Source of the DNA: Thermobaculum sp.
GTDB taxonomy: Bacteria > Chloroflexota > Chloroflexia > Thermobaculales > Thermobaculaceae
Assembly (NCBI GenBank): GCA_016782125.1
Contig: JADDPA010000178.1
Coordinates: forward strand, 1-42,546
Direction of reading: 5' to 3'
DNA: 42,546 bases
A program made the position numbers and the translations under genes. The number at the start of each line of letters is the position of its first letter. Within the stretch, counting starts at the first letter, position 1. Shown here piece by piece: positions 13,813 through 14,923 of the stretch. The notes below the pieces were generated by a model that had not been told where the DNA came from, ran no database searches, and saw only the letters and a program-made list of their open reading frames with translations.

Positions 13813-14352
13813 CTACCCCCGGTATAACTCTGGCTTCAACACGCCGATGTACGGCAGGTTGCGGTAGAGATCGTCGTAGTCGAGACCGTATCCAACCACG
13901 AACTCGTCCGGTATCTGAAAACCTGTGTAGTCGAGTGGCACGTTCGCGACTCGGCGCTCGGCCTTGTCGAGCAGCGCACATATCTTGATGCTCGCGGGCT
14001 GACGAGCGCTGAGGCTCTCGATCAGGTACGAGAGGGTGAGGCCAGTGTCCACTATGTCCTCCACGATGAGCACATGCCGCCCCTCAATGTTGCGGTCGAG
14101 ATCTTTTAGGATGCGTACGACGCCGCTCGAACGCGTACCGCTGCCATACGAGCTGACCGCGATGAAGTCGATGCTCAGCAGGATTCGGCAGGCGCGAACC
14201 AGATCTGACATGAACAACGTGGCGCCGTTGAGCGCGCCGATCAGGATGGGCACCTTACCGTCATAGTCCTCGGTAAGCCGTGCGCCCAACTCGCGAACCT
14301 TCGCGCCAAGCTGCTCCTCGGTGATGAGCACGTGGTCTATATCTGCTTCCAA
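13813..14352 (-). CDS. hpt: Hypoxanthine phosphoribosyltransferase
   Basis: 179 residues from TTG 14352, which has AGGAGG five bases upstream and gives the usual family length. The PRPP-binding loop HVLIVEDIVDTGLTLSYL lies near residue 92, preceded by ILIGALNGATLFMSDLVRA near 37 and the FIAVSSYGSGTRSSG loop near 65. It salvages hypoxanthine and guanine to IMP and GMP. The frame is open a further 20 codons to 14412, but the ribosome site favours the TTG. Its upstream region is shared with a divergent LexA-boxed promoter. It is not next to tilS or ftsH, where hpt often sits. Confidence 0.92.
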   Translation of the reverse strand: MEADIDHVLITEEQLGAKVRELGARLTEDYDGKVPILIGALNGATLFMSDLVRACRILLSIDFIAVSSYGSGTRSSGVVRILKDLDRNIEGRHVLIVEDIVDTGLTLSYLIESLSARQPASIKICALLDKAERRVANVPLDYTGFQIPDEFVVGYGLDYDDLYRNLPYIGVLKPELYRG

Positions 14353-14413
14353 ATCAGCCTCCTGAGACCTCAATTGATGTGGCCCGATGTAAACAAAACA
14401 GCGCTCCAGCACG

Positions 14414-14442
14414 TTGACTGTAGAACAAATGTTCTATATAAT
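14414..14442 (+). promoter_or_regulatory. Near-consensus sigma-70 promoter
   Basis: TTGACT (14414-14419), exactly 17 bases, then TATAAT (14437-14442). It is the best promoter in the window and points at the zinc-finger gene starting at 14488. The whole spacer is occupied by a LexA-type palindrome, so the promoter should be strong when derepressed. Confidence 0.85.
14421..14436. promoter_or_regulatory. LexA (SOS/DinR-type) operator
   Basis: TAGAACAAATGTTCTA is an inverted repeat with seven-base arms and a two-base centre. It contains GAAC-AAAT-GTTC, matching the GAAC-N4-GTTC core bound by LexA/DinR in Bacillus and by actinobacterial LexA. It fills the -35 to -10 spacer of the promoter at 14414-14442, an ideal place for repression. 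No other GAAC-N4-GTTC was found by eye in the window. Confidence 0.75.
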
Positions 14443-14487
14443 GGAGGCACTCGGGGAGCAGAGGAACATATAGGGAGGGTCTTGTAA

Positions 14488-14733
14488 ATGAGCGCTTACC
14501 CATGTCTCGACGAGCTACGTAGATACACGTCATTCCCGTGCTCGCAGTGCACCGCGTCGCGTTGCTGGATGGGTAAGAAACCGCTCGGCCGTACGCCCGT
14601 ACTCCACCCCGGCCAACGTGCTTGTAATCACTGCGCTATCCCGTTTCGCGCCAGCGGCCGCAACCGCTACTGCAGCGAGACGTGCCGGTACAACGCCATG
14701 ATGAAGCGCCGTCGAGCGCGCCGCGCCGCCTAG
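14488..14733 (+). CDS. Small cysteine-rich zinc-finger protein, probably SOS-induced
   Basis: 81 residues, ATG 14488 with GGGAGG about nine bases upstream. Two cysteine groups are visible: PCSQCTASRC (C18, C21, C26) and a treble-clef-like CNHC ... YCSETC (C46, C49, C62, C66). A very basic tail follows (MMKRRRARRAA). The second group with its RNRYCSETCR core resembles short zinc-ribbon domains that end in a basic helix, suggesting DNA or RNA binding. The promoter carries a LexA box, so the likely role is in the DNA-damage response; that is inference. No named family is recognised. A 36-nt palindrome follows 16 bases after the stop. Confidence 0.8.
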   Translation: MSAYPCLDELRRYTSFPCSQCTASRCWMGKKPLGRTPVLHPGQRACNHCAIPFRASGRNRYCSETCRYNAMMKRRRARRAA

Positions 14734-14749
14734 AACATCGCCACACCGC

Positions 14750-14785
14750 GCGAGGGGCCCACGAGCATGCTCGTGGGCCCCTCGC
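14750..14785. terminator. Perfect 36-nt palindrome, probable terminator hairpin
   Basis: Bases 14750-14767 and 14768-14785 are exact reverse complements (outer arm GCGAGGGGCCC, centre GAGCATGCTC). RNA from either strand would form a very stable GC-rich hairpin. There is no T run after it, so termination would be atypical. It separates the zinc-finger gene from the convergent enolase-family gene. The remaining 138 bases to 14923 show nothing I can name. Confidence 0.55.
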
Positions 14786-14923
14786 CCCGACTCTGTGGCT
14801 TGTCGTGAACAGTTCGAGTGTTCGTCCTCACCATCGGACCGCTGATGCTGACAGCGAAGAGACAGGCGTGGACGGTGGACCCGGCCGCACCCGGATCTTG
14901 ATCCTATACGCGAACGCGCGTGA

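Follow-up and report, generated by a model that had tools for sequence, protein, structure and literature searches.

A conserved LexA-type box in the promoter of a small putative zinc-finger gene of Chloroflexia

Does a small gene of Thermobaculum sp., whose 81-residue product has no significant match in Pfam, NCBIfam or the PDB sequences, belong to the SOS response, and what might its product do? The question was raised by a first-pass annotation of the window, by which we mean the whole 42,546-nucleotide stretch of DNA analysed here (contig C161 of a genome of 2.96 Mb in 220 contigs, 91.9% complete). It described a TTGACT-N17-TATAAT promoter with its spacer filled by a palindrome of the Gram-positive LexA type, and took the gene downstream for a dedicated SOS gene. 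The features of the locus are collected in table 1.

Table 1. Features of the zinc-finger transcription unit and its upstream neighbour (positions in the window)
Feature	Position	Strand	Remarks
hpt ORF (hypoxanthine phosphoribosyltransferase)	13813..14412	-	divergent; longest frame; neighbour outside the conserved unit
-35 element TTGACT	14414..14419	+	common to five divergent orthologous promoters
LexA (SOS) box TAGAACAAATGTTCTA	14421..14436		16 bp palindrome; 16 of the 17 nt of the -35/-10 spacer
-10 element TATAAT	14437..14442	+	
Shine-Dalgarno GGGAGGG	14473..14479	+	8 nt ahead of the start codon; read from the sequence
ORF of the 81-aa two-site zinc-finger protein	14488..14733	+	C6/C18/C21/C26 and C46/C49/C62/C66
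C-terminal treble-clef finger (predicted)	14623..14730	+	C46-x2-C49-x12-C62-x3-C66 into basic helix (residues 64-80); AlphaFold, Foldseek, profile comparisons
Perfect 36-nt palindrome	14750..14785		likely RNA hairpin ending the transcript; no T-run

The promoter, its box and their conservation

The promoter (14414-14442, 11/12 matches) and the palindrome filling its spacer are as first described, and this is the sole sigma70-like site within 14300-14900. The core of the box, GAACAAATGTTC, is the same as that preceding recA of this genome. A weight matrix built from the lexA, recA, dnaE2 and ImuA-like sites of the family, with the zinc-finger gene left out, scores the box at 25.4 bits, against 13.0 for the second-best site in the window and a maximum of 21.5 over 200 simulated windows, none of which reaches 25.4. 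On these scores and the conservation in orthologs described below, we reject a chance origin of the box. Furthermore, the genome has four exact matches to the 16-mer TAGAACN4GTTCTA, against about 0.1 expected by chance (our estimate from base composition), and the four sites adjoin the starts of dnaE2, the zinc-finger gene and two further small genes that are unknown. The other GAACN4GTTC sites inspected in this genome lie mostly inside coding frames and were left out of the SOS count.

The genes on either side, hpt upstream and an epimerase downstream, are both on the minus strand, and thus the unit is monocistronic, in agreement with the initial claim that the promoter drives one gene only. 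The start of hpt is likelier to lie about 60 nt further in than that of the longest frame. As to the end of the unit, the 36-nt palindrome initially reported is exact, but the lack of a T-run after it sets it apart from classical intrinsic terminators. The substitution pattern indicates that the ORF is under strong purifying selection: dN/dS is about 0.03-0.09 (window against G001 and G003), with 25 synonymous and 4 non-synonymous differences from G001, and 6 and 0, respectively, from G002.

Orthologs of the gene were found in five relatives (G001, G002, G003, G004 and G006), the carriers being metagenome bins of Chloroflexia or Chloroflexi, one of them labelled Rubrobacter. Conservation of the palindrome upstream of homologs had been named as a check on the SOS reading; we found a perfect TAGAACN4GTTCTA in 5/5 orthologs, at the same promoter position and beginning 61-67 bp ahead of the start codon. 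With the window included, the box is present in all six ortholog promoters and in none of the 11 paralogous copies (1/C(17,6) = 8e-5). When the promoters of five diverged genomes are aligned on the box, TTGACT.TAGAACA...GTTCTATA...T and one isolated G are all that is conserved over 100 bp. The boxed copies do not form a strictly monophyletic group: in a tree with weak supports a mobile-looking, boxless copy (G000 C90, 77% identical) nests among them, which suggests that the box was lost in this copy. This placement and the weak supports count against the explanation that we favour below.

The group of boxless paralogs displays a different, likewise conserved upstream footprint composed of TTTAC repeats, TTGTTAC, GTTTA and CTATACTCC (L062, L064, L066, L069, L072, L073, L077), and in G000 and G002 it sits downstream of two-component response regulators; footprint and neighbours together suggest control by a response regulator. 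Additionally, on a small contig a zinc-finger paralog is joined to a winged helix of the Trans_reg_C type (L068:28-558).

LexA and its regulon in the family

The presence of a LexA gene had been set beforehand as a test of the SOS reading, and one is encoded on contig C165, at equivalog level (172.8 bits against the TIGR00498 cut-off of 110.95). The lexA of this genome is itself preceded by the core GAACGTATGTTC. A GAACN4GTTC core lies ahead of lexA in G000-G004, and in G000, G001, G002 and G004 it is placed inside the -35/-10 spacer: the promoter reads TTGACACGAACATACGTTCGTATTTATAAT in G002, TTGACACGAACATACGTTCGGATTTATAAT in G001, with the same design in G000, and TTGACACGAACATCCGTTCTGGTCTACAAT in G004. 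The zinc-finger promoter shares this arrangement, the box in the -35/-10 spacer, with the lexA promoters of three same-genus genomes. The LexA gene in the genome and the box in front of all the orthologs strongly support LexA control. Promoter and coding gene are thereby as secure as a comparison of sequences allows, and LexA very probably represses the zinc-finger promoter.

We compiled further regulon sites, TAGAACN4GTTCTA or near matches to it, from pattern matches and selected stretches. Boxes precede recA (G000, G003, G004), the error-prone DNA polymerase gene dnaE2 (G000, G003), an ImuA-like RecA-domain gene (G002, G003) and DUF5131 genes (G002, G003), and one stands at a divergent pair of SRAP/YedK and RecA-like genes in G004. 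The GAAC-N4-GTTC core has been described for Bacillus and Mycobacterium (PMC3323433). With the Gram-positive LexA/DinR regulon the present one shares this core, the boxed lexA, recA and error-prone polymerase genes, and a box overlapping the promoter. It differs in that the box is extended to TAGAACN4GTTCTA, and in the inclusion of several small protein families lacking a Pfam or NCBIfam match, that of the zinc-finger gene among them.

Four other boxed families are without a match in Pfam or NCBIfam. One, of 80-88 aa (MFLLWYDDTKKKPVEEKILEGIERYIERFGETPNLCLVN...), has perfect LexA boxes (L011:977-1216, L102, L107, L113, L096, L121) and is represented in a second family of the class as well, by G007 with two adjacent boxes. 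A second comprises proteins of about 200 aa (L008:1238-1861, L099, L104, L110, L115), whose AETRAKARALR stretch we take to be reminiscent of Rad52/DdrA-type proteins. The remaining two are of about 96 aa (L012:1034-1321, L101, L103) and of 78-90 aa (L106:1650-1919, L100, L105, L111). At the SRAP/YedK and RecA-like pair a single perfect box lies between the divergent genes (L097:904-2626), and the boxed DUF5131 genes of two genomes are of the phage Gp37/Gp68 type (L108:1141-1947, L114). The Thermobaculum-like G005, a two-replicon genome of the same family, has GAACATTAGTTC upstream of lexA (L138) and is devoid of a boxed zinc-finger copy.

The protein and its likely fold

The 81-aa protein is strongly basic (17 K/R against 3 D/E) and ends in a basic tail. 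Two cysteine clusters had been reported at the outset. In an alignment of 17 copies, C6, C21, C26, C46, C49, C62 and C66 are invariant, and C18 is absent only from two distant G005 copies. The C46/C49/C62/C66 cluster is thus retained, while the N-terminal one, first described with three cysteines, becomes a second four-Cys site through the invariant Cys6. AlphaFold models a hairpin and long helix at residues 43-80, with pLDDT of 84-91 over residues 41-80; the N-terminal half stays ill-defined, at a pLDDT of about 50. The best Foldseek matches, all with E >1, include DUF1470/CGNR (3h0n), YacG-gyrase (4tma) and an FCS finger (2w0t). For the C-terminal site the prediction is a treble clef that carries a basic helix and is similar to the CGNR, FCS and YacG fingers.

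We do not count the protein as a member of CGNR, YacG or DUF2116. The likeness to CGNR (PF11706; DUF1470 3h0n) lies in a C-x(2-4)-C ... C-x(3-4)-C treble clef that leads into a helix rich in Arg and Lys; 3h0n is the top Foldseek match, and the comparison with the CGNR profile yields 21.4, whereas 30 column-shuffled controls do not exceed 15.4 and the reversed profile gives 8.3. However, no member matches PF11706, the CGNR motif is absent from the alignment, the accompanying domain is missing and there is an extra N-terminal Cys4 site; the similarity is a remote one between profiles. YacG and FCS fingers are classified as one treble-clef family (PMC4999995). With these and the TRASH fingers the protein has in common a YCSxxC knuckle ahead of the helix, its small size and the Foldseek similarity to 4tma and 2w0t, but a significant sequence match is absent, and we do not assign it to the YacG gyrase inhibitors. 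The sole Pfam family with consistent weak matches (14/17 members) is DUF2116 (PF09889), probably a treble clef as well; here the best member reaches E 7e-4, and the window protein, at 12.8 bits, falls short of the gathering cut-off of 26.8 that membership calls for.

The complete two-site family was found in 7 of 158 genomes of the class, all seven belonging to this bacterial family. Outside it, phylum-wide profile matches cover essentially the second finger alone, and the proteins concerned are unrelated; upstream of the seven that we inspected there is no GAACN4GTTC core. In G003, one paralog makes up the C-terminal half of an ORF of 175 aa, and the N-terminal portion of that ORF gives a match to the Trans_reg_C winged helix (E 1.3e-5, just below the Pfam cut-off).

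Proposed role and alternative explanations

Our best inference, which we hold to be rather probable, is that the locus is a single-gene SOS unit encoding a damage-induced nucleic-acid-binding protein. In undamaged cells, LexA bound to the palindrome in the -35/-10 spacer would block RNA polymerase; upon DNA damage, RecA-stimulated self-cleavage of LexA would free a near-consensus promoter and allow abundant synthesis of the 81-aa protein. We consider it most likely that the chain folds around two Cys4 zinc sites and binds nucleic acid, be it damaged or single-stranded DNA or a promoter, through its basic C-terminal treble-clef helix; it would then act in repair, or in regulation at the time of damage, as a small accessory factor. 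Three observations make such binding plausible: a treble clef is predicted, the tail is basic, and the paralog in G003 is a winged-helix fusion, which points to DNA. Against the proposal count the protein-protein contacts that treble clefs also mediate, the Foldseek E-values above 1, the poor resolution of the N-terminal half in the model and the sub-threshold Trans_reg_C match.

Could the gene instead be a domesticated mobile-element gene, kept under a host SOS switch to assist DNA transfer, replication or recombination? We regard this as unlikely. Some paralogs do sit on contigs of mobile appearance: one adjoins a gene whose large product is similar to a plasmid replication protein, with an integrase-like gene near (L070), another lies beside an integrase-like gene (L077) and a third beside a SWIM-like gene (L061), all named by eye. 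Weak matches to PHROG (best member 8e-6) point the same way. Matches in phage records and viral contigs are weak or confined to the finger. The boxed copies, however, lie in ordinary chromosomal surroundings (hpt, Obg GTPase and transporter genes) wherever the flanks are readable, and a mobile ancestry would bear on the origin of the gene, not on its present function.

An SOS-induced inhibitor or protector of gyrase, either YacG-like with a treble clef on GyrB or GyrI/SbmC-like, would keep gyrase away from damaged DNA, and a YacG-like action would suit the fold. Protection of gyrase by YacG under stress is on record, as is SOS induction of GyrI/SbmC in E. coli (PMC10886550); in addition, 4tma, the complex of YacG with gyrase, ranks with the best Foldseek matches (prob 0.57-0.60). 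Nevertheless, the Foldseek E-values are 2.2-8.5, a Pfam YacG match is found in 0/17 members, and the C-terminal region of YacG that spans GyrB and GyrA, a tail needed for gyrase contact, has no counterpart in a chain that stops at the basic helix, which makes this role improbable. A damage checkpoint or division inhibitor, analogous to the lineage-specific YneA, SidA and SulA, would fit a small, monocistronic and strongly SOS-boxed gene. Unrelated SOS division inhibitors occur in many lineages. Yet a hydrophobic membrane segment is absent from the protein sequence, and a strongly basic protein with two Cys4 sites is unlike the known inhibitors; we consider this quite improbable. Finally, it is very improbable that the box serves the divergent hpt, or both genes, and we reject this as the main reading: the two genes do flank the palindrome in the window, G001, G002 and G006, but in G003 and G004 the zinc-finger gene retains promoter and box away from hpt, so the switch belongs to the zinc-finger gene, and in addition none of the boxes listed for those two genomes faces hpt and the 14300-14900 scan found no minus-strand sigma70-like promoter.

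By its promoter and conservation, the zinc-finger gene very probably joins the SOS response, a regulon of known kind, as a new and lineage-specific member. Our literature search found no work devoted to the SOS response of Chloroflexota. The present data supply an SOS box, the promoter logic of lexA and a list of regulon genes for one family of this phylum, and add a selected, conserved protein family missing from Pfam and NCBIfam. More tentatively, the regulon of this Chloroflexia family might contain a set of undescribed small proteins, including a damage-specific nucleic-acid-binding zinc protein whose paralogs were recruited to two-component systems and mobile elements, and could form a genome-protection module without counterpart in model bacteria. 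Through the zinc-finger gene, the role of lineage-specific small proteins of the SOS response becomes testable.
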